From Candidatus Marsarchaeota archaeon (GTDB lineage: Archaea > Micrarchaeota > Micrarchaeia > Micrarchaeales > Micrarchaeaceae): a DNA stretch of 64,000 bases. The position numbers were made by a program, and so were the translations under genes. The notes beneath the pieces are model-generated. The model did not search any database, was not told where the DNA came from, and worked only from the letters and a program-made list of their open reading frames with translations. The stretch covers positions 1-64,000 of the forward strand of contig JAMCZQ010000004.1 in the NCBI GenBank assembly GCA_023485295.1, written 5' to 3'. Below, one piece after another: positions 11,866 through 64,000 of this stretch (within the stretch, counting starts at the first letter, position 1; the number at the start of each line of letters is the position of its first letter).

Positions 11866-12009
11866 TTGGGGGTTGCTTTAATTGCTGGGACGTTAGTTGG
11901 AGCTGCCACTACCGTAACACTAAATATTCTGCACATAGTTACTTTGGCCATATGCTTTGTAATAGGTGCTTTCTTCATCCACTCTAGTGTAAGAAAGAGG
12001 TATAGTTAA
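11866..12009 (+). CDS. Possible casposon micro-membrane protein (47 aa)
   Basis: A TTG-initiated frame, 38 bases after the previous stop, reads MGVALIAGTLVGAATTV, a second hydrophobic stretch (HIVTLAICFVIGAFFIH) and a basic end SSVRKRY. Two helices with positive-inside charge make it plausible, but the small size, the TTG and the lack of a clear ribosome-binding site keep this tentative. Confidence 0.4.
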   Translation: MGVALIAGTLVGAATTVTLNILHIVTLAICFVIGAFFIHSSVRKRYS

Positions 12010-12021
12010 ATGCATATAGGA

Positions 12022-14639: not shown

Positions 14640-14652
14640 TTTGCATCACCAT

Positions 14653-15612: not shown

Positions 15613-15678
15613 TGTTAATATTAATCTATTTAAACCTTTCTATTAGACCATGCGCTGGAAAAAAGCGCAATATATGAA

Positions 15679-16350
15679 GTGGTTTCGATGAGATTCAGCA
15701 AAAGATACAGAAACTTTGAAGATTGGTTATTCACCCACGATAGGCATACTAGCTACATAAAACGTGTAGTCAGGTTACATTCGCTCTATCCTAAAGCGAC
15801 TTTGGATCAGCTAAGGGGGCATGTTAAAATAGCTACAAAGAAGCTCAGTAAAAGCAAGCCAAAGCTCATATCCACAAGACCCTGGAACACGCTCAGCCCT
15901 AAAGAACAATTAGCAAGGGAGCGAGCTTTAGAGGTTCTGAGTCAAGCCAGGAGATCTAGATTATCACTATCAAAACTCGGCAAAGAACACGGAATATCGG
16001 TTAAATCAGTCCTAAAGGCTACTCGTGGCTTCAAGAAGGTAAAGGGTCGCTGGAAAGCAAAGAAGATAGACCATATCTCACGCATAATGGCAATAAACGA
16101 GAACGGCAAGGAGCTGTTCATAGAGGTAACTGATTCTCGCTATGCAACACTTATCGGCAAGTACCATAGCTCAGTAAAGGAATACCTCAACACTGGCAAT
16201 ACTGATGTTCTAGTCGATTTTGAAGATAAGAGAGTAAAGGATAGTTCAGGCAAGTGGCATACCCTTGAAACAAATCCCTCAGTTATACGTGAAATCAACG
16301 CAAGGCGAGAAGAGCCAGAGTTTTACGATATTTACCAGGTGAACGTATGA
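15679..16350 (+). CDS. Casposon HTH DNA-binding protein
   Basis: A very basic 223-residue protein, GTG at 15679 or ATG at 15688. Residues about 85-125 (EVLSQARRSRLSLSKLGKEH then GISVKSVLKATRGF) form a helix-turn-helix, preceded by a Lys/Arg-rich region and followed by an acidic C-terminal part (about 135-220) with KVKGRWKAKKIDHISR. Similar basic HTH proteins accompany polB in described casposons. Its stop overlaps the start of the next gene (ATGA), making a rightward operon with the zinc-finger, HNH and polymerase genes. Confidence 0.62.
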   Translation: MVSMRFSKRYRNFEDWLFTHDRHTSYIKRVVRLHSLYPKATLDQLRGHVKIATKKLSKSKPKLISTRPWNTLSPKEQLARERALEVLSQARRSRLSLSKLGKEHGISVKSVLKATRGFKKVKGRWKAKKIDHISRIMAINENGKELFIEVTDSRYATLIGKYHSSVKEYLNTGNTDVLVDFEDKRVKDSSGKWHTLETNPSVIREINARREEPEFYDIYQVNV

Positions 16351-16739
16351 TACAATGTCCATATTGCAAGCGCAGTTTTGGTAGTGAAGGGTCGTACAGG
16401 GTGCATAAGCACCGATTCCATAAAGGTATGGAATATAAGCAACCAGTATTTACGCATGAAGTGGTTCAGCAACCAACACCAGAGCCAGTTGAAGCTGAAA
16501 AAGGCATTGAAGAGTCAGACGTTATAACTGAGGATATCTACACGCCACTAAAGATGCGGTATGATGGTGCAATACCAGAACCACAGCCAGAGCAACCTAA
16601 ACCACAAGAGCCAGAACACCATGATCATAGCATTGTAGAGCGAGGCAAAGATAGCGATGGTGACGGACTTGCCATTCTCGGTGGCATAGGGGCTATAGCA
16701 GTTGTTATCATTCTGGCATTACTGGGCAAGAAACAGTGA
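16347..16739 (+). CDS. Casposon C2H2 zinc-finger protein with C-terminal membrane anchor
   Basis: The 130-residue protein begins MIQCPYCKRSF and continues to VHKHRFHKG, a single C2H2 finger (C4, C7, then two His of the VHKHRFH segment). The middle is Glu/Pro-rich and acidic. Residues about 104-126 (LAILGGIGAIAVVIILALLG) form a single membrane helix followed by KKQ. A nucleic-acid-binding finger tethered to the membrane is an odd pairing. The gene overlaps its upstream neighbour by ATGA. Confidence 0.66.
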   Translation: MIQCPYCKRSFGSEGSYRVHKHRFHKGMEYKQPVFTHEVVQQPTPEPVEAEKGIEESDVITEDIYTPLKMRYDGAIPEPQPEQPKPQEPEHHDHSIVERGKDSDGDGLAILGGIGAIAVVIILALLGKKQ

Positions 16740-16743
16740 TAAC

Positions 16744-17294
16744 ATGCATAAAAACGATAGAGATAGTGTTAAAATGACTGTAAAAATGGATGTAAAGATA
16801 AATGATAAAATAACGGATAATAATGATAAAAGGAGCATAAAAGAAGGTAAAAATACGGATAAAAAGCAGAAATTGTTATCAGATATTATCAGCTATTTCT
16901 TTGATTCAGCAGAAAAGAACAATCTGGATAACAAAAAGGTCAATAAGGTTGTAAAAGATGTTCAATACCTAGTCAAAAAAGACCCTAAACAGAGGGATAC
17001 CAAGTGTTTTATATGCGAGAAAGATTAGAACTGCACCATATAGCAGGCAGAAACAACTCTGAGATGACTGTTTCTCTATGCGTACCATGCCACAATGAGA
17101 TAACAAAGCATCAGAATACGTGGGATGTACGCTGGACTAATCAAAACAACACAGAAACACTACAAAACGGATTCATAATGCAAGGTATTAGGGAATTGCT
17201 TTTGCTGAAATACGTCAAAACAGGGGATTACACTTACTATTGCTTAGCAGATTCCCTATGTTATGGCGTAGGCAAAGCACTGGCGAGCAGATGA
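16744..17294 (+). CDS. Casposon HNH endonuclease, split by a -1 frameshift
   Basis: Two frames make one protein. Frame one starts at ATG 16744 (GTGA four bases upstream) and gives a Lys/Asp-rich helical N-terminus ending in KCFICEKD, stop at 17026-17028. Frame two carries LELHHIAGRNNSEMTVSLCV and CHNEITKHQ to the stop at 17292-17294. Joined by a -1 slip on AAA (17020-17022) the product of about 182 residues has CFIC, HH (HNH catalytic) and CVPC, the zinc-binding HNH layout, with nothing missing. Neither half alone holds both Cys pairs. The cause may be a real mutation, programmed slippage or a sequencing error. Its stop overlaps the polymerase start (ATGA), so it was part of the operon. Confidence 0.75.
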
Positions 17295-19948
17295 ACGAAG
17301 GAATTAGCATAGCATTGCGATGTTATATAGACAACGAACTCAATCCACAGAACGATAACTTTACCTATTATAACGATAATTTAGTGTTTGTTTTTGACAC
17401 AGAAACAACGATAGACCAGTATCAGAACCTAAAATTTGGGTCTTACAGCATATGGCAGAACGATAAACTGGATGAGTTTGGGCTGTTTTATGATAACAGT
17501 TTGGATAACAATGAAGTAAAAACGTTATCGGACTATTCCAATAAAAAGCACATAAAACTGATGACGAAAAGCCAATTTCTTGATTTGTTTATAAACATAG
17601 TCTATAAAAGAAGGGCAATTTGTGTTGGTTTTAATTTACCTTTTGACATATCGCGAATAGCGATAGATTATAGCGTATCCAGGAAAGATAGCAACGCCTT
17701 CTCTTTCAAGCTATTCGATAACGTCTATATACCTAGAATCATCATAAAGCACATCGATTCTAAACGTTCATTGATAAACTTCTCTACGCCTTACTCTAAA
17801 AACTATAAAAAAGTTAACAGATACAGAGGCATATTCGTTGATCTGAGAACGTTATCTTTTGCGTTAACCAACAATAATCACTCTCTTGAAAGTGCATGTA
17901 AACTGTTTAACGTTGAGCATAAAAAACTGAAGACTGAAGATCATGGCAAGATAACGCCAGAGTACATACAATACAACATAAACGATGTTTTTGCGTCTTA
18001 TGACCTGTTTCTTGCATTGAAAAGCGAGTTTTCAAAGTATAAACTGTCAACACCACTGAGCAAACTGTTATCGCCAGCGTCTATAGGCAAGGAATACTTC
18101 AAGGAGATGGGCATCAAGCCGTTCCTAGAACTGAACCCCATGTTCCCTAAGCACTTGCTCGGATGGATAATGACCACCTATTACGGTGGTAGAACAGAAG
18201 TGCATATACGCAAGTCACCTGTAAAGGTATCATATATCGACTTTACATCCATGTATCCGTCGCAATTCGTATTACTCGGATTATGGGATTACGTTATCGC
18301 AGATAACATCGAAGTCATAGAAGATAACAAATTCGATAACTTGCTGGATAGCATACAGCTAAACGACCTTACAAACAAGGATTTATGGAAAACGCTCAAT
18401 GGTATCGCTCTCGTGGACGTGGATAACGACATCTTGCCACTCAGAGCTAAATACAAAGGCAATGCGGCATACAATATAGGACTGAACTTTGCAAAAGGCA
18501 AGGCACTTTGGTACACTTATCCTGACATCATAGCGTCAAAACTGCTTACTGGCAAAGTACCTAAGATAATCAAGGCGTTTCGATTTGTTGCCAAAGGCAA
18601 ACAGGGCAACCTACATTCAATAAACCTGTTTGGGAAGACAATAGATCCGTATAAAGACGATTTTATTCGCTATCTAATCGAGCATAGACTAGAGGTAAAG
18701 CAAAAATTGAAGCAAGACTCTGATAACAAAGATCTCAAGAAAGAGGACTTTATCGCCAAAATAATCGCAAATGCCACCTCTTATGGCATTTTCGTTGAAG
18801 TAAACACGCAAAACGAGAGGGTAAATGCAGAAATCTATGGAATAAATAAGTTTACGTGCGAGATAGACAAGAAAGAGCAGTTTGGCAGAGCGTTCAACCC
18901 TATTATTGCAACTATGTTAACATCAGGATCAAGGTTAATACTTGCCATGGTGGAAACAGTTGCACGTGAAAACCAAGGCTACTTTGCATATTGCGATACC
19001 GATTCACTCTTTGTTAACCCAGAATTAGTGGATAAGATTCAAGCATTCTTCAGGTCTCTGAATCCTTACACTACACCAGTTGAGATGTTCAAGGTAGAAA
19101 ACGATGAGAATGGCAAGCCTCTAGACGATGTTTGGTTTTATGGCATTTCTGCAAAGCGGTATTGTATGTACAGCATGGAGAGCGGTAAAATCAACATCTT
19201 AAAGCATTCATCCCATGGCCTGGGTGGTTTGATAGGTATAAATGAAGATGGGGTAAAAGCTATTTGGAAAGATATACTAGGTCATCATTATAATACACTA
19301 TCGAAAGCGGAGACAGAGAGCAAATATTCAAACAAATATGTGATTGGTAAACTTGCTTTGACTTCGCCGTTTGTCTTACGGCGTTTTAGACGCACAAACA
19401 AGAATAAAAAACTAAAGCCATTCAATTTTGTTATAGTTGGCATTGGGCATAGGTTGGATCCTTCAACCAGGGAACCAATAATACCCATGTTGGCTTACAC
19501 CAAAAACACAGATATCGTGCCGTTTAGCTCATTTACTGATTACAAAACTGGCAAAGCGTATGTTGACAATACACAGTTTTATTGGAAACCGTTTTCAGAA
19601 TTCCTCTTAGACTACATGAATCATAACGATGGCAAGTATGATGGGAATATAGGAGAGTTGAAAAGGAAACAAATTGATATCGGAGAGATAGAACACATCG
19701 GCAAAGAGTCAAACAACCTTGAAGAAAGCGAAGTTCTCGGCGTTTCTGACGATAATTATACCATATATGGTGCTAGAATTGATGAGAAACTGTGTAAGAT
19801 AATCCCTAACCTAACTAATATAGATGCAAAACAAATTGGAATATCCAGAACAGAACTGTATTATCTTAATAAGATGGTTAAAGAAGGAAAGAAGATAAGA
19901 ATGAAAAGGAAGACGTTGAGAAAACTATTAAATAACCTCTACTATTAG
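17291..19948 (+). CDS. polB: Casposon family B DNA polymerase
   Basis: The ATG at 17291 overlaps the HNH stop (ATGA) and is preferred to an upstream in-frame start, giving 885 residues. Exonuclease motifs are intact: FDTET (D36, E38), FNLPFD (N115-D119) and YNIND (Y228-D232). Polymerase motifs are DFTSMYPS (D317, motif A), K..ANATSYG (about 490-499, motif B) and YCDTDS (about 568, motif C). It should replicate or repair the element, with proofreading. The C-terminal 45 residues (ISRTELYYLNKMVKEGKKIR and on) match the HTH tail of the casposase next door, which is unusual. Codon use is AT-rich like the rest of the element. Confidence 0.93.
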   Translation: MNEGISIALRCYIDNELNPQNDNFTYYNDNLVFVFDTETTIDQYQNLKFGSYSIWQNDKLDEFGLFYDNSLDNNEVKTLSDYSNKKHIKLMTKSQFLDLFINIVYKRRAICVGFNLPFDISRIAIDYSVSRKDSNAFSFKLFDNVYIPRIIIKHIDSKRSLINFSTPYSKNYKKVNRYRGIFVDLRTLSFALTNNNHSLESACKLFNVEHKKLKTEDHGKITPEYIQYNINDVFASYDLFLALKSEFSKYKLSTPLSKLLSPASIGKEYFKEMGIKPFLELNPMFPKHLLGWIMTTYYGGRTEVHIRKSPVKVSYIDFTSMYPSQFVLLGLWDYVIADNIEVIEDNKFDNLLDSIQLNDLTNKDLWKTLNGIALVDVDNDILPLRAKYKGNAAYNIGLNFAKGKALWYTYPDIIASKLLTGKVPKIIKAFRFVAKGKQGNLHSINLFGKTIDPYKDDFIRYLIEHRLEVKQKLKQDSDNKDLKKEDFIAKIIANATSYGIFVEVNTQNERVNAEIYGINKFTCEIDKKEQFGRAFNPIIATMLTSGSRLILAMVETVARENQGYFAYCDTDSLFVNPELVDKIQAFFRSLNPYTTPVEMFKVENDENGKPLDDVWFYGISAKRYCMYSMESGKINILKHSSHGLGGLIGINEDGVKAIWKDILGHHYNTLSKAETESKYSNKYVIGKLALTSPFVLRRFRRTNKNKKLKPFNFVIVGIGHRLDPSTREPIIPMLAYTKNTDIVPFSSFTDYKTGKAYVDNTQFYWKPFSEFLLDYMNHNDGKYDGNIGELKRKQIDIGEIEHIGKESNNLEESEVLGVSDDNYTIYGARIDEKLCKIIPNLTNIDAKQIGISRTELYYLNKMVKEGKKIRMKRKTLRKLLNNLYY

Positions 19949-19955
19949 TTTAACT

Positions 19956-20519
19956 ATGCCGGCTCGAAAACTAAAATCCTGGAGCTTAAAGGAGATAGCC
20001 CAGATAATAGTGATTCCGATCGTAATTGGAATAATCTCAAGCGCTATATATGCATACGTAGTAACTTCTACTGCTCCAGAGCCACTGATTTATATAAGAA
20101 TCATACAGACCTCTTTTAACTTTCCAATTAATCAACCACATTATATAGCTATTCAATTTAGTAATTATGGCAAAGCTAATTGTGCATATATACACTTTAA
20201 GATAAACACGAGAGATGGTATCTTTATACTAACGCCGTCATCAAATATTACTATATATCCGCAGTCAATAATTAAAAGCGGAATTACATATGATAACAAA
20301 ACAAATTCCGAATGGTTTACAGCTACTATGTCCAATATAGAACCATACGAGTATGGATATATCTCCTTCATAGTAAGTAATACAATCAAATATCCTGACA
20401 ATCTCTATGTAAACATATCGGATCTTGAAGGATGCGCTTCTCAATACAGGATATTTACTTATGCTCAACTAGAAAATAACTCATCTCTTGTGAATGCGAA
20501 GAATTTAACTATAACTTGA
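19956..20519 (+). CDS. Casposon signal-anchored extracellular protein
   Basis: A 187-residue protein starting 8 bases after polB. A basic head (PARKLKSW) precedes one membrane helix (about 15-38, AQIIVIPIVIGIISSAIYAY), then an outside domain rich in Asn, Tyr and Ile with many N-x-S/T sites and beta-strand character. No family recognised. It is the last gene of the rightward operon. Confidence 0.55.
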   Translation: MPARKLKSWSLKEIAQIIVIPIVIGIISSAIYAYVVTSTAPEPLIYIRIIQTSFNFPINQPHYIAIQFSNYGKANCAYIHFKINTRDGIFILTPSSNITIYPQSIIKSGITYDNKTNSEWFTATMSNIEPYEYGYISFIVSNTIKYPDNLYVNISDLEGCASQYRIFTYAQLENNSSLVNAKNLTIT

Positions 20520-20626
20520 TAGAAAGATGTAGATTCCGTACATATAGATATAATGAAATTGGTATGTACTAAACTATAGATAAATATTATATTATAAAAC
20601 AGTCATTTAGGGTGGCCCTCAAAGTT

Positions 20627-21058
20627 CTATCTTTTTTCTAAGAAGATGGCTAAACCCATCCCTGCAAAAACGACAACTATAGAAATGATTGAAGATAGGA
20701 TTACATCAAAACTTACTACAGCAGGGGTTAAACTGGAAAGATCAGGCCAGAAAAGATAAAGGCCCACTAATGCTCCCATTCCAAATATTAATGTTTTATA
20801 TTTCATTTTTAGACCGTTTTCGAAATCCTGAATAATCCAAATAATAGCTAATGCTCCAATGATTATTGCCATTGTGGATCCAAAATAAGCCATTGTGTTT
20901 GCAAAAGTAGGGGCCATAGATATGGCGGTGCCTATTATAATTTTGTGTGCCTGAGACAGAGCATAAATTAATTCAGAGTCTATTACTTGTATTACAGGCA
21001 TGAAAAACCCGGAAATGAATATGCTTGCATAAATCTCCTTTTCTATTAGTTTTGGCAT
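20627..21058 (-). CDS. Casposon four-helix membrane protein
   Basis: The 143-residue protein has hydrophobic segments at about 9-27, 38-60, 62-78, 90-104 and 115-138, with a charged stretch QDFENGLKMKYK in the middle. It lies just inside the right terminal repeat and reads inward. No family recognised; cargo of unknown role. Confidence 0.55.
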   Translation of the reverse strand: MPKLIEKEIYASIFISGFFMPVIQVIDSELIYALSQAHKIIIGTAISMAPTFANTMAYFGSTMAIIIGALAIIWIIQDFENGLKMKYKTLIFGMGALVGLYLFWPDLSSLTPAVVSFDVILSSIISIVVVFAGMGLAIFLEKR

Positions 21059-21109
21059 AATTTTTTTTAGTCTGAACTGATATTTATAACTTTCATAAAT
21101 CTGAAAATG

Positions 21110-21140
21110 TGTTCAAAATCTTTGATTTATATATAACCCC
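21110..21140 (-). repeat. Casposon terminal inverted repeat, right
   Basis: Exact 31-bp reverse complement of the left repeat, ending in ATATATAACCCC immediately before the duplicated target. Confidence 0.96.
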
Positions 21141-21154
21141 AGCATCTGAATATA
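21141..21154. repeat. Casposon target-site duplication, right copy
   Basis: AGCATCTGAATATA, identical to 11349-11362; the original downstream flank of tRNA-Glu resumes with AAGCACAGAG at 21155. Confidence 0.95.
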
Positions 21155-21286
21155 AAGCACAGAGTAACTTTTTGCTAGATAAATTGCTGCCGGGCTGTTA
21201 ATAGCATGCTCATTCCTAGTTCACTCATGCAGCACTTCATTGTACGAAAGCAATAATAACATGCACAAAGATATCCGAACGATGCA

Positions 21287-22330
21287 ATGCAGATAATAAA
21301 ACCTAAAAGACTTAGCGAAGGCGATACGGTAGCTATAGTTTCGCCTTCGGCCGGGGTTCCGGCACGGTTTCCGCATATATATGGGCACGGGCTGGATATG
21401 ATAAAAAAGCACCTCAGGCTTGAAGTTAAGGAGTATAATACAGCTAGGAAAAGCAATGATTACCTTTACACGCATCCGCGTGAAAGGGCGGAAGACATAA
21501 ACAACGCCTTTGCAGACAAAGAGGTAAAAGCAATAGTCGCAAGCATAGGAGGTGACGATTCGGTAAGGATATTGGATTACCTTGACATGAAAGCCATAAA
21601 GAATAACCCGAAGATCATAATGGGATTTTCGGATTCTACTACGTTTTTAGATTATATACACCTAAAAACAGGACTCATTACATACAATGGGCCTACCATA
21701 ATGGCTGGGTTTGCGCAAACAGAAAGATTTCCAAAATTGTTTTTGGACATGATTAGGAGTTTGCTTTTCGAGCCAACGGAAAAATACGAGTATCACAGCT
21801 TCCCTTTCTGGTCAGACGGCTATCCGGATTGGGCTGAAAAGAGCAACGTAGGAAAAATAAATGAAAGGCACAAGAACGATGGATGGCACTGGCTTCAGGG
21901 CAATGGCGTAGTGAAAGGCAGGCTTTTCGGTGGATGCGCAGATGCACTTGAATTCATGAAAGGAACGCGCTTTTGGCCTGGAAAAGATTTTTGGGATGGA
22001 AAGATATTATTTCTAGAAACTTCCGAAGACAAGCCCATGCCAGATACGGTAAAGTACTGGGTGAGGAATTACGGCAGCCAGGGGATACTAGAACGGATAG
22101 CTGCGCTGCTGATCGCCATGCCTTCTGGGTATTCAATGGAAGAAAAAGAGAAAATGGAGAACAAAGTACGCTCAGTCCTCAGCCTGGAATTTGGAGCAGG
22201 TAAGATTCCCCTTGTTACCAATATGGATTTTGGACACACAGATCCAAAATTCATCTTGCCAATAGGAGCAATGGCAGAAGTGGATGCATCAAAGAAAAGG
22301 TTTAGGCTCTTGGAAAATTCGGTTTCATGA
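21287..22330 (+). CDS. S66-family serine peptidase (LD-carboxypeptidase/MccF-like)
   Basis: The 347-residue protein has the S66 layout: N-terminal GDTVAIVSPSAG, a mid-region GGDDSVRILDYLD, the nucleophile elbow IIMGFSDSTTFL (Ser), then LFLETSED (Glu) and MDFGHTDPKFILPIG (His) of the Ser-Glu-His triad. Family members cleave peptidoglycan LD bonds or, as in MccF, detach acyl-nucleotide antibiotics such as microcin C7. Archaea of this type lack peptidoglycan, so detoxification or peptide turnover is more likely. No signal peptide, so cytoplasmic. It is the first gene to the right of the casposon scar. Confidence 0.88.
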   Translation: MQIIKPKRLSEGDTVAIVSPSAGVPARFPHIYGHGLDMIKKHLRLEVKEYNTARKSNDYLYTHPRERAEDINNAFADKEVKAIVASIGGDDSVRILDYLDMKAIKNNPKIIMGFSDSTTFLDYIHLKTGLITYNGPTIMAGFAQTERFPKLFLDMIRSLLFEPTEKYEYHSFPFWSDGYPDWAEKSNVGKINERHKNDGWHWLQGNGVVKGRLFGGCADALEFMKGTRFWPGKDFWDGKILFLETSEDKPMPDTVKYWVRNYGSQGILERIAALLIAMPSGYSMEEKEKMENKVRSVLSLEFGAGKIPLVTNMDFGHTDPKFILPIGAMAEVDASKKRFRLLENSVS

Positions 22331-54145: not shown

Positions 54146-56041
54146 CTATAACTGTATTCTAGATTTAAAAAAGTCTTCAGTGTTTTTATCCATGAAATAA
54201 ACATAGCAGCCCAGCATTCCACGCGTTAAAAGAACCCTATAAATATTTTTAACATATTTGGTGAAGTCTATGCCCTTCTTCTTCAATTGAGGATCTGCAG
54301 AGGCTTTTGGGTTACCTATCCATCTCTTTTCAACTGGATCATAAACTAGATCAGGACCAAATATAACTCCAACATATTCAAACTCAAATCCTTGAATAGT
54401 ATAAATACTACCAATCTGATTTATGCCATTAGGATCATAAGCCCAGAGCGATGCTTTTGGTATTCCCGGAGCTAATTTTGCCGCATTGTTCTTTGCTTCC
54501 CAAGTCATCTTAAAATCTTTTCCTATTACAACGTCTTTTTTGAGTGTTCCGTCAGGATTTGGATCGCTCCAGGGCCAGCAAAATCCTGCGACTAATCTAG
54601 CAGAGTTTTGCTTTTCTGCGTTTTTAGCTTTTATTGCCTCGTATAGTTCAACAGGGCTGTCAAATATTCTAAAGTCCATTTTTTCATTCTTTGTAAGATA
54701 GGTATGATCCGTTTCGCGTATGTCTAATGTGTTATCAATCCAGTTCATATATCCATCAGAACCATTACACCTGAATTGTGTTTTTAGCTCGAAATCAAAG
54801 GTTTCTGCGCCAAATTTATCAGCAGTTTCCTTTATCAATTTGGTACTGCCTATCTCGTCTGGCCTAACTACCTGAAGGTCGTCTATGAAGAAGATGGTCA
54901 ATTTTGCAGCCCTTATGAGTTCATCTATTTGTGGCATATCAGATCTATAAATGGATTTTGTATACCTAGAATTGCTTGTTTTTCGTATGCGGTGCGCTTC
55001 GTCACAGACTAGCACGTCTATCTCATTTTCTTTTACCATCTTAGAAGAGAAACTATTAAAGTATTTGAATAACTTTGCTGCTCTTATGCCAACTATTTTT
55101 CTAAGTGTTGTTGTGAATGCAGCGGATCCAGTAGCATGAAATATTGATAAATCCTTATTTTTAGATAGAAGTTCAGCAATTACATTCAATGCAATAACTG
55201 ATTTGCCAGTACCTGGACCCCCTTTAACTATTATTACAGATTTCTTACTTGATTTTGTAAGCTTTTTCGCCCTATCCAAAATCGTGTTATAAGCCACCAG
55301 CTGCTCATCTATTAGATGAAATATTTTTTCCCCCTTTATTGTTTTACTTGTGTGCTCTAGTAACTTCTTACTGGGCCTTATATCGCTATTTGAAAATCGG
55401 TTAAGAAGTTCCAACCCATTTCCAGCAGACAATTTTTCTTTTAAGTACTCGCCTAGCTTATCAAAATCTTCTTTTGTAAATAAAGGAAATTCTTTTAATA
55501 CCGTATCGAACTTCGGAGATAGTAGAACTGGGTTTGTCTGAAATTTTGAGTAATTATGACAATAGCTACAAGATTCTAATCTAATACTTTCATCACGATT
55601 GAATACTGATACAAAGTCTTTTACATATAGATGATATTCTCTAACTTGCACAGACGGATGTGCTTCAAGTCGTTCTCTCCCTCCGACAAATGTAATTATA
55701 TTATCTTGTATATCACTGTCCTTAACGGTTTCCCATTGTTTAAGTTCTATTATGATTGCATTGCTTGTACCATCTCTAGAATTTCCGAATAACATACAAT
55801 CTAAGCGCTTAGTACTATATGGCAGTTCATACTCTATTACAATTCCGTTATCTCTGAGCGAATAATGTTCCAACACATCCTTAAGCACTCTGAGAGAATT
55901 CCTCCAAGAGTTTACTTCTCCTGGGCTCGGACTTCGTAAATAATAATTTTCGTAAGAAAGTTTTAACTTGTCGGCAATTGTGCCATGTAATGCTTCATCT
56001 ATAAAGTCGTTAGTCAATCCCTCGTATAATTTCATGTTCAC
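54146..56041 (-). CDS. PD-(D/E)xK nuclease fused to DUF2075-type (Schlafen-like) helicase
   Basis: The 631-residue protein has two parts. The N-terminal region (about 50-180) has TKRLDCMLFG and AIIIELKQWE, the D and ExK of a PD-(D/E)xK nuclease. The helicase part has IVKGGPGTGKSVIALN (Walker A, about 270), DVLVCDEAHRIRKT (Walker B), IFFIDDLQVVRPDE, FELKTQFRCNGSD, YTIQGFEFEYVGVIFG and RVLLTRGMLGCYVYF (SF1 motifs V-VI). Proteins of this composition are found in defence islands. The ATG overlaps the stop of the nucleotide pyrophosphohydrolase gene (ATGA), so the two are co-translated. Confidence 0.85.
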   Translation of the reverse strand: MNMKLYEGLTNDFIDEALHGTIADKLKLSYENYYLRSPSPGEVNSWRNSLRVLKDVLEHYSLRDNGIVIEYELPYSTKRLDCMLFGNSRDGTSNAIIIELKQWETVKDSDIQDNIITFVGGRERLEAHPSVQVREYHLYVKDFVSVFNRDESIRLESCSYCHNYSKFQTNPVLLSPKFDTVLKEFPLFTKEDFDKLGEYLKEKLSAGNGLELLNRFSNSDIRPSKKLLEHTSKTIKGEKIFHLIDEQLVAYNTILDRAKKLTKSSKKSVIIVKGGPGTGKSVIALNVIAELLSKNKDLSIFHATGSAAFTTTLRKIVGIRAAKLFKYFNSFSSKMVKENEIDVLVCDEAHRIRKTSNSRYTKSIYRSDMPQIDELIRAAKLTIFFIDDLQVVRPDEIGSTKLIKETADKFGAETFDFELKTQFRCNGSDGYMNWIDNTLDIRETDHTYLTKNEKMDFRIFDSPVELYEAIKAKNAEKQNSARLVAGFCWPWSDPNPDGTLKKDVVIGKDFKMTWEAKNNAAKLAPGIPKASLWAYDPNGINQIGSIYTIQGFEFEYVGVIFGPDLVYDPVEKRWIGNPKASADPQLKKKGIDFTKYVKNIYRVLLTRGMLGCYVYFMDKNTEDFFKSRIQL

Positions 56042-56421
56042 AACTCATTATATTTCTTATTTGAACCTTTAGCTTTCTTTATAGGATACTTTACCGCGTT
56101 TTTCTTTATTTTCTTTTCGAGTTCGCTAGATAAATCGAACTTGTTCATTTGGGCAAATCTTAATAGAAAATACAAGACGTCCGCAAGTTCTTCGCCTATC
56201 ATCTGGCGCTTACTGGAATTTGACATTATCTCTTTAATATCGCCTTCTCTTTTAAATCTGAAGATATCTAAAAGTTCACTAGCCTCCGTTGATACACCTA
56301 TCGCAAGGTCTTTGGGATTATGAAACTGGTCCCAATCGCGCTCTTCGCAAAACTTTTGCACTTTGCCCTTCAGCTCCTTTATAGTCGTTGAATCATCTCT
56401 CATTCTCTCATCTAAGCCCAT
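56038..56421 (-). CDS. MazG-superfamily nucleotide pyrophosphohydrolase (DCTPP1/RS21-C6-like)
   Basis: The 127-residue protein has FCEERDWDQFHNPKDLAIGV, the family start of DCTPP1-like enzymes, the metal motifs STEASELLDIF (ExxE) and IGEELADVLYFLL (ExxD), and a basic tail. It hydrolyses (d)NTPs to monophosphates, preferring dCTP or modified nucleotides in characterised relatives. Coupled by ATGA overlap to the nuclease-helicase gene, which suggests a shared function, possibly nucleotide depletion or damaged-nucleotide removal. Confidence 0.88.
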   Translation of the reverse strand: MGLDERMRDDSTTIKELKGKVQKFCEERDWDQFHNPKDLAIGVSTEASELLDIFRFKREGDIKEIMSNSSKRQMIGEELADVLYFLLRFAQMNKFDLSSELEKKIKKNAVKYPIKKAKGSNKKYNEL

Positions 56422-56429
56422 TCATTATT

Positions 56430-56489
56430 TTAACCACAGATTTTAACTTTCTTTCCTTCTTTTATGTGTTTAGCCTGTTGAATTCTCTT
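56430..56489 (-). pseudogene. Orphan casposase-type HTH tail
   Basis: A 19-codon stretch bounded by stops reads AKHIKEGKKVKICG at its end, nearly the same as KKHIKEGKKIKIYG of the casposase at 13440-14639 and close to the polymerase tail at 19900. It has no start and overlaps the beginning of the 108-base repeat at 56473, so it is a remnant. Confidence 0.55.
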
Positions 56490-56580
56490 CTATAACATGT
56501 CCTTTACCTTATGGGGGTATAGGGGGATATAGATAATTATACTATAGAGAAACAATTCACTTATAGACAAGCCCTGAGAG
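56473..56580. repeat. Direct repeat ending in a tRNA-Thr 3'-end fragment, copy A
   Basis: About 108 bases sharing GATATAGATAATTATACTAT and flanks with copy B at 57643-57742, ending AAGCCCTGAGAG, which is the 3' end of the tRNA-Thr gene plus one base. Confidence 0.75.
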
Positions 56581-56719
56581 AATGCTCTCTTCTCGATAAG
56601 GAACCCGCCGTTATTTTGCTGTCCGCTGCGATAAATTTGCTATTAAACCGCATTATCTATATATAAAATAAGAATCACTAATAGTGTACAGTATATCCTA
56701 TTGCCTTTACATATTGGTT

Positions 56720-56974
56720 CTAATTTTTGATATAATACTTATAACTAATAAAGAGTAATATGACAAGGATAAAAACTATGATGTACCAAGCAATAAAAGC
56801 TAATACCATCAATATTATTAGAAGTATTATTACAGCTAAAATTAGTCTTATATAATCTACAGAGTCAAATTTGGTTAAAGGCTTTGCTTCTCCTACAGAT
56901 AATTTAAGGAATAGTGTAGGCAAAAACTTTAGGATAGTAAATGAGAGATAATTCTCTTTCTTATTTTTTGCCAA
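56720..56974 (-). CDS. Small two-helix membrane protein
   Basis: The 84-residue protein starts at TTG (56974) with GTGA four bases upstream. A basic head, an amphipathic segment and a long hydrophobic stretch (about 43-80) that can span twice. It follows the next gene on the strand by eight bases, forming a pair. No family recognised. Confidence 0.5.
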   Translation of the reverse strand: MAKNKKENYLSFTILKFLPTLFLKLSVGEAKPLTKFDSVDYIRLILAVIILLIILMVLAFIAWYIIVFILVILLFISYKYYIKN

Positions 56975-56982
56975 AACATCAC

Positions 56983-57579
56983 TTATTTTAATTGTCTCTT
57001 TAATGAAGGAATAATAGGTGTTGCCTCCTTTCCTATAATAAAGAGTTTATCTGAAACTTTTTCAACTTTATTAAATATTCTCCCCATGAAATTATTTACG
57101 CCTAAATTAGCCTCCATATAATCCTTGGCTCTTCCTGTCGCATCTTCTTCGTCATAGACGATTTCGACACAAGAAGCCTTCTTTAATTCTTCTTCCTTTA
57201 ATAGACCCCAGGCCACAAGTGTTTTCATATCTGTTTCCGTATTCAAATTATTTAATTCTATCATTCTATCGTCTACAGAACTAATTGCAGTTATAGGTAT
57301 ATCAAACCATGTTCCAGCAATGCCACTTAATGCACTCTTCTTTTCTTCACTTGTTAACTCTTTTGCTCCAATTTGATATAAAATCAGGAAATAAAGCTTT
57401 TTATTAGTCACATATACATTAGTTGCAGTAAAAGATATCGGGAATTCCTTTCTCTCTTTCCCTAACACTTTTTTTATCTCCGCTTCCTTCATAAATACTG
57501 TTGGCATTATTGTTCTACTTTCAAATTCTATTCTTTCATTTTTATCTAGCTCTCTAAAAATACCTATATGATTCCCCAT
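56983..57579 (-). CDS. Hypothetical protein with PH/GRAM-like strands
   Basis: The frame runs to 57717 inside repeat B, but GGGAT three bases before ATG 57579 marks the likelier start: MGNHIGIFRELDKNERIEFE, 198 residues. The middle (TNVYVTNKKLYFLILYQIG then WFDIPITAISSVDD) resembles the strands of PH/GRAM-like membrane- or lipid-binding domains. If a start at 57627 is used, an N-terminal helix (MTIFLLVFIDIIARDI) is added. It sits between the two tRNA-Thr-derived repeats. Confidence 0.5.
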   Translation of the reverse strand: MGNHIGIFRELDKNERIEFESRTIMPTVFMKEAEIKKVLGKERKEFPISFTATNVYVTNKKLYFLILYQIGAKELTSEEKKSALSGIAGTWFDIPITAISSVDDRMIELNNLNTETDMKTLVAWGLLKEEELKKASCVEIVYDEEDATGRAKDYMEANLGVNNFMGRIFNKVEKVSDKLFIIGKEATPIIPSLKRQLK

Positions 57580-57642
57580 AATATCCCTAGCTATAATATC
57601 AATAAAAACTAATAAAAATATTGTCATTTGCGTTACTTTATA

Positions 57643-57742
57643 GGCCGTTGAATTTTCCCCTATAACATGTATTTCATCTTTGGAGAAGATATAGATAATT
57701 ATACTATAGGGGAACAATCCATTTACAAGTAAGCCCTGAGAG
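57643..57742. repeat. Direct repeat running into the tRNA-Thr 3' end, copy B
   Basis: About 100 bases homologous to copy A. Inside it TTCCCCTATA (57655-57664) and TATAGGGGAA (57705-57714) are perfect inverted repeats 40 bases apart, degenerate in copy A. Confidence 0.75.
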
Positions 57743-57844
57743 GGAATTGAACCCTCAACCTCCTGTTTTCCTGATTTAATTCTTGATTAAACTTCTTTTC
57801 AAGAAGTTTACAAGACAGGCGCTCTGCCATTGAGCTACCAGGGC
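57732..57844 (-). tRNA. tRNA-Thr (anticodon UGU) with canonical intron
   Basis: Acceptor GCCCTGG/TCAGGGC; anticodon stem CCTGT/ACAGG around CTTGTAA (anticodon TGT). A 41-base intron follows position 37 (57808-57768). The intron contains the hairpin AACTTCTT-GAA-AAGAAGTT. No CCA. Confidence 0.92.
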
Positions 57845-57892
57845 ACCTTTCGCTCTTTTATTTACCTGTTAAACCTATAAATTATTTCCTTT

Positions 57893-58249
57893 TTAGTCAA
57901 TGAGTTTGATATGTATGCCTATTACTCCATACTGCCGTTCTTCCTCCTCAGTATAGTATTCCCTCTGCCGATTGATCTGCTCTTCAATGCTTAAATCCTG
58001 TTCATGCCCGAACTTTGACTTTTCGAAGTTTGAGAAAAGGTCACGGAAAGACCTGAAAATAGACAGCCCTATAACCTCGACTTTGATTTTTTCTGTTTTT
58101 TCCGGCAATTTGCTGAAAATTATAATGTCTCCAATCTTTACGCCTCTTCTTTTTTCATCGTATAAGCGAATTTCTATTGATTTTTTCCCATTCTTTATCT
58201 TTTCAAACGGTGCAGGATTTAGGGACATTTCATGCATCATATAATTCAC
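57893..58249 (-). CDS. ASCH-domain protein
   Basis: A 118-residue PUA-like ASCH domain: MHEMSLNPAPFEKIKNGKKS followed by IEIRLYDEKRRGVKIGDIII, ending YGVIGIHIKLI. ASCH proteins bind RNA and some cleave or act on modified nucleosides such as N4-acetylcytidine. Start GTG at 58249, or the internal ATGs. It follows the flippase gene by seven bases. Confidence 0.85.
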   Translation of the reverse strand: MNYMMHEMSLNPAPFEKIKNGKKSIEIRLYDEKRRGVKIGDIIIFSKLPEKTEKIKVEVIGLSIFRSFRDLFSNFEKSKFGHEQDLSIEEQINRQREYYTEEEERQYGVIGIHIKLID

Positions 58250-58256
58250 GTTTATT

Positions 58257-59819
58257 TTAGCCTATGAAAAAGCCAATGTACCTTATGGCTATCGAAGCCG
58301 GCTTCTTCAGCTGCCTTATCTTGGACAGTGACTCTACTATGAAATCCAGGTTCCTCTTTTCTATCGCCTTTGTAGCTGCAAGCATCGGCGGATATAGAAG
58401 CAATGCAACTATTATGTTTACAAGCACAGCTGCCCTGCTGTAATGCATTGCAATGGTCAACGCGAAAAGCACTATGAAAAGCATAATTGCAGATAGTGTC
58501 AGCCTTCCAAGCCTTTTCCACTCCATTCTTATGGAAAACTGGCTGTGCAGGGCCTTTATGTAGAGCAGGTCCATCAATATCGGGCCGACGGCGAATACTG
58601 CAATAAGCGCTCCTGCAACCTTTTCATATGGCACAAGTATTGCCAGAAGGGCTACCTCTGCAACCACTACTACTAGCTGGTATTTCATGAACCTCTTTGT
58701 ATCGCCGTTGCCTATTATGAGCTGGCCCGCAAAGCTGCCTATCAGCCCTATTACTGTGCCTACCGATATGAAGGCGAAGTACAAAGGCGCTCCAACGTAT
58801 GCGCTTCCGAAAAGAAGCCTTGTCAAGGGCTTTGTTGTCGCTACAGCGTAAGCGAGTATCGGCAGGAGGAAGATGAAAGCGTAGAACACGCTGTTGTTGT
58901 AGATTCCTGCAATCCTCTTGCTTATGGATTCGTTGGTTAGCGTATAGGAGAATGCGGGAAGTATCACGAATGTCATGGAAGTCATTATGAGCTCAAAGAA
59001 CCTTCCAAGCTTGTATGCTGCCCCATAGCTTCCAACCACTGCAGTAGTGGCGAACACTCCAAGCAGCAATATCGCAAGGCTTGTTGTTCCGGATATGGCT
59101 ATGTTGGAAGTAACTACAGGTATTGAAAACGAAGCCAATTCCTTGGATATTGCCTTTTTGAATCTAGGCACGAAAGTGCCTATATTTCCATAAATGTTAA
59201 GGATTGCATAAACAAAGCCTATCAAAAGGCTTATTGCTAGGCCCGCGACAGCTCCAAGCACTCCGTAGCCAAGAAGTACCAGTGCAACAACGAATATTGC
59301 CTGCGATATTGCATAGACTATGTTTGCAATTGAAGAGTGCCTTGTTGAGCCCAAGCCTACAAGCACAGCTACTGAAAGGTTGAAAAGAACCGAAAGCAGC
59401 ACGCACACAGCAGCTATTATTATTGGGTAATACATGCTCGTATTGTGGTATACTGTGCTGGCAAGCACTCCGCTTATTGCTATTCCTATCAGCATTATGA
59501 TTAATGATATTATTCCTGCGATTGCGAACCCGTTAGACACGAGCTCCTTCTTTCTTTCCCTGCCTACCTCCTTTTCTGACAGCTTTTTCCTGAGCGCAGT
59601 GCCCATGCCGAAGTTGCCGCCCATGCCAAGGAGCGTGTAAAGCGCTATTACTATGGTGTATATTCCGTAATCAACTGGCTTCAGGTATCTGGCCAGGAAA
59701 ATCAGCAATAGCAGGGTGACCACTGCGCTGATTATCTTGCTTGAAATGAAAAAGCTGCCGCTCCTCAAGGCCTTAGAGCCGAGCTCTCTCACTTCAGCAG
59801 TCCCTTCCTGATACTCCAT
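58257..59819 (-). CDS. Polysaccharide/oligosaccharide flippase (Wzx/MOP superfamily)
   Basis: The 520-residue protein has 12-14 membrane helices and an N-terminal GSKALRSGSFFISSKIISAV typical of polysaccharide export flippases, with the usual charged loop KKLSEKEVGRERKKE between the second and third helices. It should flip a lipid-linked oligosaccharide outward for surface glycosylation. The glycosyltransferases near 47-50 kb would be functional partners although not adjacent. Confidence 0.87.
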   Translation of the reverse strand: MEYQEGTAEVRELGSKALRSGSFFISSKIISAVVTLLLLIFLARYLKPVDYGIYTIVIALYTLLGMGGNFGMGTALRKKLSEKEVGRERKKELVSNGFAIAGIISLIIMLIGIAISGVLASTVYHNTSMYYPIIIAAVCVLLSVLFNLSVAVLVGLGSTRHSSIANIVYAISQAIFVVALVLLGYGVLGAVAGLAISLLIGFVYAILNIYGNIGTFVPRFKKAISKELASFSIPVVTSNIAISGTTSLAILLLGVFATTAVVGSYGAAYKLGRFFELIMTSMTFVILPAFSYTLTNESISKRIAGIYNNSVFYAFIFLLPILAYAVATTKPLTRLLFGSAYVGAPLYFAFISVGTVIGLIGSFAGQLIIGNGDTKRFMKYQLVVVVAEVALLAILVPYEKVAGALIAVFAVGPILMDLLYIKALHSQFSIRMEWKRLGRLTLSAIMLFIVLFALTIAMHYSRAAVLVNIIVALLLYPPMLAATKAIEKRNLDFIVESLSKIRQLKKPASIAIRYIGFFIG

Positions 59820-60110: not shown

Positions 60111-61286
60111 ATGTATTTGATTAAAACTGGAGCCGTATTATCAATTGATTTTATGAGAGAATTATATATACCAAACAAAAACCACACTATAGGGTATTCA
60201 GGCAACAAAATATACAAACCCATGAAACAAATTTCTAATGCTATCGAAAAAGCAGAATTATACAAAAGAATCGAAGAATTTAGGACAACTAAAAAATGGG
60301 AGCATATAGCAAGAATAAATCAAACTATCGCACTTTCAGTAAATGAATATTTCAATAAGCTCGGTTCCGCATTTACTCTCTTGCCTTTGACTACTAGGAT
60401 GATATCTTCTCCAGCCGCATTATACGGCAAAGGGCACATAGACTATACTAGCGACACTGTCCCGGTAAAGTTAAAATGGTTTAATTTAAAAAAAGACATA
60501 TTTTTATCTGAATCTTCTCAAATCTATCTAGAACTACACCTAATAAATGAAAATTTAAATTCTGTCTACTCAATATACAATTCTTTCAGAAAAGAGAAAT
60601 CAGATGCTACACACTTAAGCGAATTCCACCACATCGAATTTGAAGGTAAAATTTCGCAAAAGGAAAACATAAGGGTAATGACCAAACTTATCTTTAATAC
60701 TATAAAGAAATTATTGAATAATAATATTGAAGATTTATCCTACTTTTTATATGATGAGGATATAGAAGATTTAAAAAAATTGTCAAATTCAACAAAAATA
60801 AAAGAAATAACTTTTGATCAAGCTTTAGATGTGCTTTACACGTCTACCAAAAACCCAAAATATAAAAAATTCACTACAAAATATTTTGGCTCATGGGAAG
60901 AAGTAAAACTTACTAAAGAACTGGATAATATGGTAATAATTTCAGAGTTCCCATTGTATGAAGTGGCATTTTACCATGCCCCAATAATAGACAATAAAAA
61001 TCGCGAGGTCGCAGACAACTCAGATTTCATCTGGCCATATTATCGTGAATTTGCAGGAAGCGGGCATAGGGTTAGAAATATGTCAGAACTGCTAATCAAA
61101 GCTAAAAAATTCAATCTTCCAAGAGAAGATTATAAATATTATATACAGTCTAGAAGTTCACTAACATATAAAGAAACATCTGGATTCGGTATCGGATGGG
61201 AGCGCATGCTGCAAGGATTGCTTAAGATGCCTTATATACATTCTGTGGCTACATTCCCTAGGGTACATAATACACTTTATCCTTGA
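60111..61286 (+). CDS. AsnRS/AspRS-like class II synthetase paralogue without anticodon-binding domain
   Basis: The 391-residue protein has the class IIb catalytic core: LPLTTRMISSPAALYGKGHI, SESSQIYLELHLI (QSSQ-type ligand strand), motif 2 HLSEFHHIEFEGK and motif 3 TSGFGIGWERMLQGLLKMP followed by VATFPRVHNTLYP. There is no OB-fold anticodon-binding domain, and an insert of about 70 residues is present. Archaeal relatives of this kind include asparagine synthetase-related AspRS paralogues, so it probably forms an aminoacyl- or acyl-adenylate in a small-molecule or modification pathway. The ATG at 60153 is an alternative start. AT-rich composition. It overlaps the next gene by four bases. Confidence 0.8.
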   Translation: MYLIKTGAVLSIDFMRELYIPNKNHTIGYSGNKIYKPMKQISNAIEKAELYKRIEEFRTTKKWEHIARINQTIALSVNEYFNKLGSAFTLLPLTTRMISSPAALYGKGHIDYTSDTVPVKLKWFNLKKDIFLSESSQIYLELHLINENLNSVYSIYNSFRKEKSDATHLSEFHHIEFEGKISQKENIRVMTKLIFNTIKKLLNNNIEDLSYFLYDEDIEDLKKLSNSTKIKEITFDQALDVLYTSTKNPKYKKFTTKYFGSWEEVKLTKELDNMVIISEFPLYEVAFYHAPIIDNKNREVADNSDFIWPYYREFAGSGHRVRNMSELLIKAKKFNLPREDYKYYIQSRSSLTYKETSGFGIGWERMLQGLLKMPYIHSVATFPRVHNTLYP

Positions 61287-62218
61287 TGTCAGGATTGGTG
61301 TTATGTTTGGCCAACGAAATAGAAAATTTATATCAAATATACCCATGGCTTAAAATTAATCATAGCGTTGAGGAGTACATAGAACCTCGCTATTATAACA
61401 GGTTACTTAAGGATTATATATTCGAAGGCAAAAGCGACATAAATATTTTCAAAAATTTTCTGAATGGTATTGATAAAAATAAACCTATCAAGGCTTTGGA
61501 ACTCGGATGCGGTTCCGGGAGAGCCACAGAAGTATTCATAAACTATTCAAAAAATAAAAATTTTGATTTGAAATTAGTTGATTTAAGTAAAAATATGCTG
61601 GATTTTTCCAAGCGGAGATTTCAAGATTCCGGAAATATACAGTTCATAAAATCTGATTCTATAGATTTCATAAAAAGAACTACGCAGGTATACGACTTAA
61701 TATTCAGTCTATGGAGCTTTTCGCATTCTGTGCACCAGAACCTTATAAAAAAAGGCATGCCAGAAGGAAAAGTTTATGTCAAAAACGTTCTTAAAAAAAT
61801 GGTAAAAACTAATATGGCTGATAATTCCAAATTTTTTCTTATACATTTCGATTCGCTTTCCGAAGAGCAGAAAATATTAATGAGGCAATGGAGAAAAGCA
61901 TTTCCGATATATAAAGAAATCAGGTTTCAAAGCCCGTCAAAACGCCTAATAGATGAGGCATTCAAAGAACTAAAAAATGAAGGCATTATAAAACTTAAAA
62001 CAAAGCACATTGTAGGAAAAGCCATACACTATACGTCATTCGGCGAAGCTTTGGAAATATTTTTTAATTTCCACATGGAGTCTTATTTTAACAAAAGCCC
62101 ATTGCTTCCTGAAATGATCAACGAGCTAAAGGAGTATTTTACAAAATTTGCTAATAGTAAAAACGAAATCAAAATCAAGCCAGGCTGTTTCGTATATGAG
62201 GTTGAAAAATATGGCTGA
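61283..62218 (+). CDS. SAM-dependent methyltransferase (class I)
   Basis: The 311-residue protein has motif I ALELGCGSGRATEVF (about 73-87), then LKLVDLSKNMLDFS and YDLIFSLWSFSH for motifs II-IV. A helical C-terminal extension of about 120 residues probably forms the substrate pocket. Substrate unknown. Start overlaps the synthetase-like gene (ATGA); its stop overlaps the next gene by ten bases, so expression of all is linked. Confidence 0.85.
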   Translation: MMSGLVLCLANEIENLYQIYPWLKINHSVEEYIEPRYYNRLLKDYIFEGKSDINIFKNFLNGIDKNKPIKALELGCGSGRATEVFINYSKNKNFDLKLVDLSKNMLDFSKRRFQDSGNIQFIKSDSIDFIKRTTQVYDLIFSLWSFSHSVHQNLIKKGMPEGKVYVKNVLKKMVKTNMADNSKFFLIHFDSLSEEQKILMRQWRKAFPIYKEIRFQSPSKRLIDEAFKELKNEGIIKLKTKHIVGKAIHYTSFGEALEIFFNFHMESYFNKSPLLPEMINELKEYFTKFANSKNEIKIKPGCFVYEVEKYG

Positions 62219-63380
62219 CCAAAAATTCAATAAAAAGGAACTATACAAAAAAATGGAAAAAGAATTAAATTTGGACGGGACATCAGATAAGCTTGCCAAA
62301 GCACCATTCGAAAAGGTAAAACCGATACTTATCCAGATGGCCAGAATCCGTTCGGCAAATACAAAACCTGCAGAAATTCTTAAAGACTACGAATCAAAAG
62401 GTGATTTTTACGGAGTAAGCAGCATAAACCCTAAAAAAATTCTTGAATTTGGAATGCTATTTTATTCTGTCCTGCCTTCAAACATTGTCCCTGTCGAAGT
62501 GTCGCCAATAATGCCAATTGGGCTCAATTCCGTCTTGACAAAATTAAGCCAAGACATATCATTGGCAACAATAAACAATTCAGAAGTAGTGAGCGACCCT
62601 ACAACTCCATTAGTTCTCGAATGTGCAAGGATTAAAAAATACAGGGCCATGTCTAGAGGTGAAGTAGCCGAAGACGCACCCATAGAGCTTGCAACTATGA
62701 AAAGGGTTTTAAGGCTACAGCCTTTCGATAAAAGCAAAGGCTATATGCAGCATTTTAATTTGCTGGGCATATGCTCTGCTGGTCGCCACAAGGATTCTAC
62801 ACCAATCATAATAAAATTTATGGAAGAGCACGTTAGCGTATGGCTAGACTTTATAGAAAAGTTAAGGGCCAATGGCTACACATTCAATAATGTCAGTTTA
62901 AAATTTTCCGATGCGGGATTTTTGGATTACATAATTAAAAAATTCAATCTGCCTAGGGAAACAATAGGCAGAAATGCTTTCAATGAAGATTTTGATTTTA
63001 TAAAAGAATACTCTATACCTTTGCCTAAAGAGGTTGACTCAATAGGTGATATGATAAAAGCAAACCCCGATAATTTATACTCCTCTTATGGGAAATCATA
63101 CCTATTTGCTATAGAAAAATTATTGTTGGAAAAATTAAAAAACAAATATAAAAACGTAAAGTTTAGTTTCGATTTTGCAAGAAAAGCTGGCCTTGGCTAT
63201 TACAATAACGCTTGTTTTCATATATTCGGTTCCAATGGCGAAGGCGAAACTATACAAATTGCAGATGGTGGCACAGTTGATTGGTTGGCAAAGCTTACAA
63301 ATAACAATAAAGAGCAATGTGTCACTTCAGGGTTCGGTGCAGAACTAATACAAAAACTTTTCTATGACAATATAAAATAA
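62209..63380 (+). CDS. HisRS-like class II synthetase paralogue
   Basis: Starting at ATG 62209 (inside the end of the methyltransferase gene) the protein has 390 residues. It follows the HisRS/HisZ catalytic core: VSPIMPIGLNSV and SDPTTPLVLECARI for motif 1/2 entry, RLQPFDKSKGYMQHFNLLGI for the motif 2 loop, and GLGYYNNACFHIFGSN then IQIADGGTVDWLAKL and CVTSGFGAELIQKLF for the HisA and motif 3 region. The tRNA-binding C-terminal domain of HisRS is not seen. It may activate histidine or a similar acid as an adenylate. Its place between two methyltransferase genes and downstream of another synthetase paralogue suggests one pathway. Confidence 0.72.
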
Positions 63381-63402
63381 AAAATGCCAAAACGATGATT
63401 AT

Positions 63403-64000
63403 ATGCAAGCTAAAATTGGAGACCTGGACAAGTTGGACTACAATGAGTTAATATCTATCGTAAAAGAAACCAACAGGCCTCCAGGCGGCAAAAATACTGT
63501 TTTTGAAATTATAAACAGGCTGATGGTATCCCAAAATACATCAATATTAGAAATTGGCACCAGTACTGGATTTACTGCTATAGAAATTAGCAGGTTCGTG
63601 AAAAGCAAAATAACCTCTGTAGACATAAATGAACTTAGCCTAAAAGAAGCTGGCAGAAGAGCCAAAGGCGAAGGGTACACTAATATACAATTTGTAAAAG
63701 CCGATGTTACAAAGCTCCCTTTCAAAAACGAGTCATTTGACGTTGTCATAGTGGGGAATGTGCTCTCCTTACTGCAAAATAGAGAAAAGGCAATAAAAGA
63801 ATGCATGCGTGTTTGTAAAAAGGATGGGTTTATAGTTGCGATACCTATGTATTATTTAAAAAGGCCAACAAAAAAACTTGTAAACGATGTTTCAAACGCT
63901 TTAAAAGTTAAAATAACTCCTTTATACAAAAAAGACTGGGTTGACTTTTTCTCCATAAATGGCCTGGAAATCTACTGGTCCAAAAATTTCAAATTCGATT
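63403..64000 (+). CDS. SAM-dependent methyltransferase (partial at right edge)
   Basis: The frame from ATG 63403 is open to the window end, 199 codons. It has ILEIGTSTGFTAIEISRFV (motif I, about 45-65), ITSVDINELS, FVKADVTKLPFKNESFDVVI and AIKECMRVCKKDGFIVAIP, the Methyltransf_11 pattern. Fourth gene of the rightward cluster, 22 bases after the HisRS-like gene. Confidence 0.85.
   Translation, partial: MQAKIGDLDKLDYNELISIVKETNRPPGGKNTVFEIINRLMVSQNTSILEIGTSTGFTAIEISRFVKSKITSVDINELSLKEAGRRAKGEGYTNIQFVKADVTKLPFKNESFDVVIVGNVLSLLQNREKAIKECMRVCKKDGFIVAIPMYYLKRPTKKLVNDVSNALKVKITPLYKKDWVDFFSINGLEIYWSKNFKFD

Follow-up and report, generated by a model that had tools for sequence, protein, structure and literature searches.

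We propose, with a probability of roughly 0.7 and judging from sequence comparisons, that a compact gene cluster of Candidatus Marsarchaeota archaeon (assembly GCA_023485295.1, contig JAMCZQ010000004.1) encodes an archaeal pathway of the agrocin 84/phosmidosine type for a stable aminoacyl-adenylate mimic that would block an aminoacyl-tRNA synthetase of a competitor or a host. Four of its genes lie on the plus strand at the right end of the 64,000-nucleotide stretch analysed here (the window), which opens a 97-kb contig in an 885-kb genome of eight contigs; a fifth lies just beyond. The four encode an asparaginyl-tRNA synthetase (AsnRS)-like protein, two S-adenosylmethionine (SAM)-dependent methyltransferases (MT1 and MT2) and a paralogue of histidyl-tRNA synthetase (HisRS) that we call HisX. 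The product would most likely carry an amino acid through an N-acyl phosphoramidate on a methylated adenine nucleotide; the amino acid is probably histidine and the target HisRS. The genes are where an earlier, sequence-only reading had placed them, and the modified small molecule it suggested is still the most likely output. Its view of the pathway as undescribed did not hold: an AsnRS-like protein, an MT2-type methyltransferase and an MccF-type peptidase together form part of the agrocin 84 locus of plasmid pAgK84, which makes this a known kind of pathway.

The gene that opens the cluster (60111-61286, 391 aa) has its likelier start at 60153, since its relatives begin at the matching residue. 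Its product matches Pfam tRNA-synt_2 (1.8e-28) and, below threshold, the NCBIfam models of AsnRS (150.9 bits, cut-off 414) and asparagine synthetase A; congruently with the sequence-only reading, no match to an N-terminal anticodon OB domain was found with Pfam or NCBIfam. A homologue from a Peribacillus plasmid, used as a query in plasmid records, led to agnA of pAgK84 (38.5% identity), annotated as Agrocin84-synthetase. AgnA is a truncated AsnRS homologue without anticodon domain and an agrocin 84 biosynthetic enzyme (PMC4392301). We built a maximum-likelihood tree on the catalytic domain of 14 archaeal and nine bacterial proteins, AgnA among them, plus AsnRS, AspRS and LysRS. The archaeal and bacterial proteins formed one clade (support 98/93) apart from AsnRS, AspRS and LysRS (96/94), and forcing the archaeal proteins together with AsnRS was rejected by the approximately unbiased (AU) test (p-AU 0.0005). 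Moreover, a TTxxxSSP segment is present in 14/14 archaeal and 5/9 bacterial proteins and absent from the AsnRS, AspRS and LysRS rows, and the group consensus keeps the motif 2 arginine and the GxGxER of motif 3. By these comparisons the window's protein is a member of the AgnA ("agrocin 84 synthetase") family and no tRNA synthetase. The genome's ordinary AsnRS, AspRS and LysRS, as well as its ordinary HisRS (contig C6, position 31227), are encoded away from the cluster; together with the tree and the AU test, these copies bear out the idea that the cluster holds free-standing paralogues instead of the cell's own enzymes, and an identity as housekeeping AsnRS or asparagine synthetase was rejected by phylogeny and the ordinary copies. 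No relatives were found in the viral contigs searched; phage matches turned out to be ordinary AsnRS-like sequences (24-30% identity) and were discarded. Models computed with AlphaFold for the AsnRS-like protein (from three sequences) and the HisRS-like protein (from two) had a mean predicted local distance difference test score of 35 and were not used.

The AgnA link extends to the last gene of the window and to the one that follows it. MT2 (272 aa) is an agn-type SAM methyltransferase that occupies positions 63403-64000 and continues for 221 bases in the same contig, ending at contig position 64221. It resembles the methyltransferase encoded after agnA on pAgK84 (Arad_15003; phmmer E 1.5e-63) and, at E ~1e-69, its counterparts in Xenorhabdus and Streptomyces. 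At E < 1e-70 it was found in 4 of 301 genomes of the window's phylum, all of which have an AgnA-like gene; in the window the two share a gene set without being direct neighbours, as MT1 and HisX stand between them. The rightward reading of the contig that had been recommended both completed MT2 and revealed, convergent with it and outside the window, an MccF-type S66 peptidase gene (contig 64225-65289, L005:6225-7289, minus strand). S66 proteins of these clusters match structures of the microcin-immunity protein MccF at ~1e-66 to 1e-74 (~1e-66 for the one next to the window), versus 1e-24 for murein tetrapeptide carboxypeptidase, and in nine genomes (G064, G221, G301, G562, G421, G519, G366, G353 and G611) the cluster copy is the sole S66. 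MccF cleaves the acyl-nucleotide amide of microcin C (PMC9239234). Three other S66 genes of the window's genome lie at window positions ~21329-21691 (plus strand), C1:75190 and C6:97059, and resemble the window's cluster S66 less than most other archaeal cluster S66 proteins do.

The linkage, which might have been peculiar to one assembly, recurs. In the nearest named relative, a Micrarchaeota genome (L007), the five genes stand in identical order within unrelated surroundings, and the synthetase-like proteins are 63% identical to those of the window. Within the window's phylum, a profile of the AsnRS-like protein detected it in 5/301 genomes; a wider profile added 11/371 genomes from the phylum to which the Nanoarchaeota record L008 belongs. 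We considered 14 archaeal loci with an AgnA-like protein and a usable neighbourhood, most related loci being from draft genomes. In most of their gene maps the AsnRS-like gene has a methyltransferase and an S66 gene as neighbours. The core that recurs is AgnA-like/MT2/S66; of the four genes noted initially, MT1 and the HisRS-like gene are limited to two loci, the window and L007, and are outside the common core.

The gene set also recurs on bacterial plasmids. In pAgK84 the order is agnA, methyltransferase and the gene for a resistant LeuRS, agnB2, with the MccF-like agnC5 further on. The Peribacillus and Exiguobacterium plasmids (L114, L119) carry an AgnA-like gene, a methyltransferase, an AlaRS-related gene, an intact AlaRS and a major facilitator superfamily (MFS) gene, with an S66 gene on the Peribacillus one. 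Xenorhabdus has AgnA-like, methyltransferase and S66 genes with a plasmid-borne leuS, a ProRS-like paralogue and an MFS gene, and a plasmid of Streptomyces NBC_01707 (L116) combines AgnA-like, MT2, molybdopterin-hydroxylase, ProRS-like and S66 genes. Phosmidosine is the 8-oxoadenosine prolyl phosphoramidate methyl ester, which the Streptomyces gene set would explain; we regard it as a candidate locus. Two distant bacterial homologues whose loci lack the methyltransferase and S66 genes (L134, L135) were left outside the family.

HisX (62211-63380) is heavily diverged. A single-sequence Pfam search gave a weak match under the cut-off (5.8e-4), and the NCBIfam HisRS model covered the C-terminal catalytic part only, at 19 bits versus a cut-off of 287. 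Profile comparison singled out HisRS (E 1.8e-7 across 161 columns, versus 0.09-0.4 for five other synthetase profiles), supporting a HisRS ancestry and thereby the initial call; HisX is not a full-length HisRS with an anticodon domain. A HisZ-like identity was rejected on phylogeny and on the ordinary copies elsewhere. The HisX homologue in L007 is 63% identical, and a 319-aa relative annotated as hypothetical is encoded on a Chroococcidiopsis plasmid (L110:11908-12867) with no AgnA-like, methyltransferase or S66 neighbours. MT1 (61286-62218), a class I methyltransferase (Pfam Methyltransf_25, 3.4e-10), is confined to the two loci with a HisRS-like gene, and among the cluster methyltransferases it matches only its L007 homologue; its putative role is perhaps the tailoring of the histidyl part. 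As had been described, the first three genes overlap: the TGA stop of the AsnRS-like gene (61284-61286) shares its last base with the ATG of MT1, which starts at 61286, and MT1 ends at 62218, beyond the ATG of HisX at 62211.

The loci differ in their second synthetase paralogue, which is HisRS-like in the window and in L007, AlaRS-like in L008, a diverged ProRS-like protein in L017, L043, L044, L045, L047 and L050, LysRS-like in L046 and in L016 (there cut by the contig end), and a diverged AspRS-like protein in L049. In several loci an intact synthetase of the same type stands beside the paralogue: a ProRS of 408 aa (557.5 bits) in L050, a LysRS in both L016 and L046, and an AspRS in L049. 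Genomes G353 and G303 have a further ProRS or AspRS elsewhere, indicating that the linked intact ones are extra copies; similarly, in G057 a second AsnRS is carried by the cluster. Radical SAM genes adjoin both Lys-type clusters (L016:5356-6540, L046:2096-2989); agnC7 of pAgK84, annotated as heme d1 biosynthesis-like, might belong to the same superfamily.

Three ways of surviving one's own aminoacyl-nucleotide are known, namely MccF, MccH and an extra synthetase copy. HIT proteins are encoded in L016, L018, L048 and L050, and 4/4 carry ExxxxxHxHxK; the window's cluster has none. The motif, ExxxxxHxHxK(xx), has been reported for the MccH clade, in which phosphoramide hydrolysis depends on the lysine (PMC7157772). 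The joint recurrence of matching extra synthetases, MccH-type HIT proteins and MccF-type S66 peptidases therefore makes up a self-resistance pattern. In L018 and L048 the AgnA-like gene is accompanied by an amidohydrolase and the MccH-motif HIT gene, beside an intact AsnRS or ThrRS.

From these comparisons and from characterized systems we infer the chemical steps of the pathway and its use against other cells. The AgnA-like enzyme, using ATP, would form a P-N bond on the nucleotide, and HisX would load a histidyl (or related) group onto that nitrogen, probably from a charged tRNA by analogy with AcmF in ascamycin synthesis. MT2 would then methylate the nucleotide, perhaps on the phosphate oxygen, which is the phosmidosine pattern; a second methyl group would come from MT1. 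Finally, the MccF-type S66 peptidase may cleave the acyl-N bond within the producer and so confer self-immunity. In the agrocin model, the active part, TM84, has the anhydride of Leu-AMP replaced by a stable N-acyl phosphoramidate and inhibits LeuRS, and the extra LeuRS AgnB2 confers immunity (PMC5059758). The agrocin 84 locus shares with the window the AgnA-family enzyme, the MT2-homologous methyltransferase and the MccF-like protein, but the archaeal cluster lacks a resistant synthetase copy and the other agnC, agnD and agnE genes, and adds the HisRS-like paralogue and the second methyltransferase. Phosmidosine, also a phosphoramidate nucleotide (PMC6429109), has been listed as a possible ProRS inhibitor (PMC7689648). 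Its candidate Streptomyces locus likewise unites an AgnA-like gene, MT2, a class II synthetase-like paralogue and S66, but with a ProRS-like protein where the window has the HisRS-like one, and with molybdopterin hydroxylase, P450 and condensation-domain genes that the window's cluster lacks. In ascamycin synthesis the truncated AlaRS-like AcmF transfers alanine to a nucleoside sulfamate from Ala-tRNA, which is supplied by AcmD, an intact, more resistant extra AlaRS (PMC12945691); the pairing of a truncated synthetase-like transferase with an extra resistant synthetase resembles several of the related loci, although the chemistry is that of a sulfamate instead of a phosphoramidate and the family that of AlaRS. 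We met no mention of an AgnA homologue in the ascamycin cluster, although no search aimed at one was made. Microcin C offers an aminoacyl-phosphoramide nucleotide warhead and the immunity enzymes MccF and MccH, but its MccB is ThiF-like and acts on a ribosomal peptide; no ThiF-like or precursor-peptide gene is among the genes identified in the window's cluster, although no systematic search for either was made.

Several observations weigh against this proposal. The window's cluster has no intact synthetase, and the only HisRS of the genome is the one on C6; agrocin 84, for its part, has no HisRS-like class II partner. With the cluster copy, the genome has four S66 genes in all. The stem branch of the archaeal AgnA-like proteins is long (1.45), so their exact placement near AgnA could be pulled. 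The variant loci L018 and L048 lack MT2 and S66, and across the archaeal gene maps no transporter is conserved. No other LysRS was found in G114 and G331, where a search for class I LysRS gave nothing over the cut-off, so that these cells may have no LysRS besides the linked one; likewise, G448 may have no ThrRS besides the linked one. Xenorhabdus pairs a ProRS-like paralogue with a LeuRS, and ancestry therefore need not name the amino acid that is loaded. Given this mismatch and how much of HisRS is missing from HisX, we are least sure of the amino acid.

Among the alternatives, the same enzymology could yield a small molecule, based on a nucleotide or an amino acid, that kills nothing and acts instead as, for example, a signal, metallophore or cofactor, with the S66 protein as a catabolic or maturation enzyme. 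The missing conserved exporter would suit this, as would the several substrates of S66 enzymes and the three additional copies in the genome; we nevertheless consider it unlikely, as the self-resistance pattern described above speaks against it. Another alternative is a self-poisoning defence, in which infection would trigger an aminoacyl-nucleotide that halts the cell's own translation and the hydrolases would otherwise keep it off. The genomes are small with few exporters, the patchy distribution and low GC are like those of defence islands, and genes for a Schlafen-type helicase, a MazG-like and an ASCH protein lie just upstream. However, the cluster in L007 does not have those genes next to it, such a system would be undone by intact extra synthetases, and among the bacterial relatives are an antibiotic producer and loci that carry MFS genes, which leaves this explanation with little chance.

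It is very improbable that the cluster is a housekeeping linkage of an archaeal asparagine synthetase or AsnRS with HisX as a HisZ-like regulator. The sub-threshold NCBIfam matches to AsnRS and asparagine synthetase A hint at it, and some bacterial homologues are annotated as asparagine synthetase A, but the tree and the AU test contradict it, only 5/301 genomes have the gene, ordinary AsnRS and HisRS are encoded elsewhere, and the linkage is to an agn-type MT2 and S66. Modification of a protein or tRNA, the other output suggested from the sequence alone, found no support; an EpmA-like role was dropped because the second synthetase differs between loci and immunity-type hydrolases recur.

A wider picture may be sketched, tentatively and at somewhat short of even odds: small-genome symbiotic archaea might hold a modular arsenal of such inhibitors for use on hosts or rivals, with a constant AgnA/methyltransferase/immunity core, a swappable transferase that sets the amino acid and the target, and in several cases a resistance copy. 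The amino acids mimicked would be His, Ala, Pro, Lys and Asp, and possibly Asn and Thr. To our knowledge, small-molecule antibiotics have scarcely been described from archaea, and least so from organisms like these, with ~0.9 Mb genomes and a presumed life on other cells. Our searches of the open-access literature on agrocin, AgnA, phosmidosine, MccF and DPANN turned up no description of such clusters in archaea (subscription papers and preprints lay outside their scope); what is new to us is the presence and diversification of the pathway in archaea, the compactness of the cluster and the variety of its synthetase-like partners. The five genes are few enough to be expressed together, and a product class, a target and an antidote are predicted for them, so the proposal can be tested. 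The swap of the synthetase-like protein, with the matching intact copies, would make the inhibitor's target readable from sequence, and the variety of loci could yield inhibitors against several synthetases.

The four genes have 33.7% GC versus 44.8% in the rest of the window, in agreement with the strongly AT-rich segment reported at the outset. Upstream lies another low-GC block (54146-58249, minus strand) with the look of a defence-type island, which contains the Schlafen group 3 helicase (54146-56041), MazG-like (56038-56421) and ASCH (57893-58249) genes, all on the minus strand. Between block and cluster, a polysaccharide-flippase-type membrane protein is encoded divergently from the latter (58257-59819, minus strand); it was rejected as the cluster's exporter, L007 having no counterpart beside its cluster. 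Further away, the 10 kb at 12001-22000 have ~37% GC in a neighbourhood of 48% and are a possible transferred segment. To the right of the window, contig 71010-75299 (L005:13010-17299) encodes a 1429-aa surface protein with two near-identical YVTN-type propeller repeats and a threonine-rich stalk.

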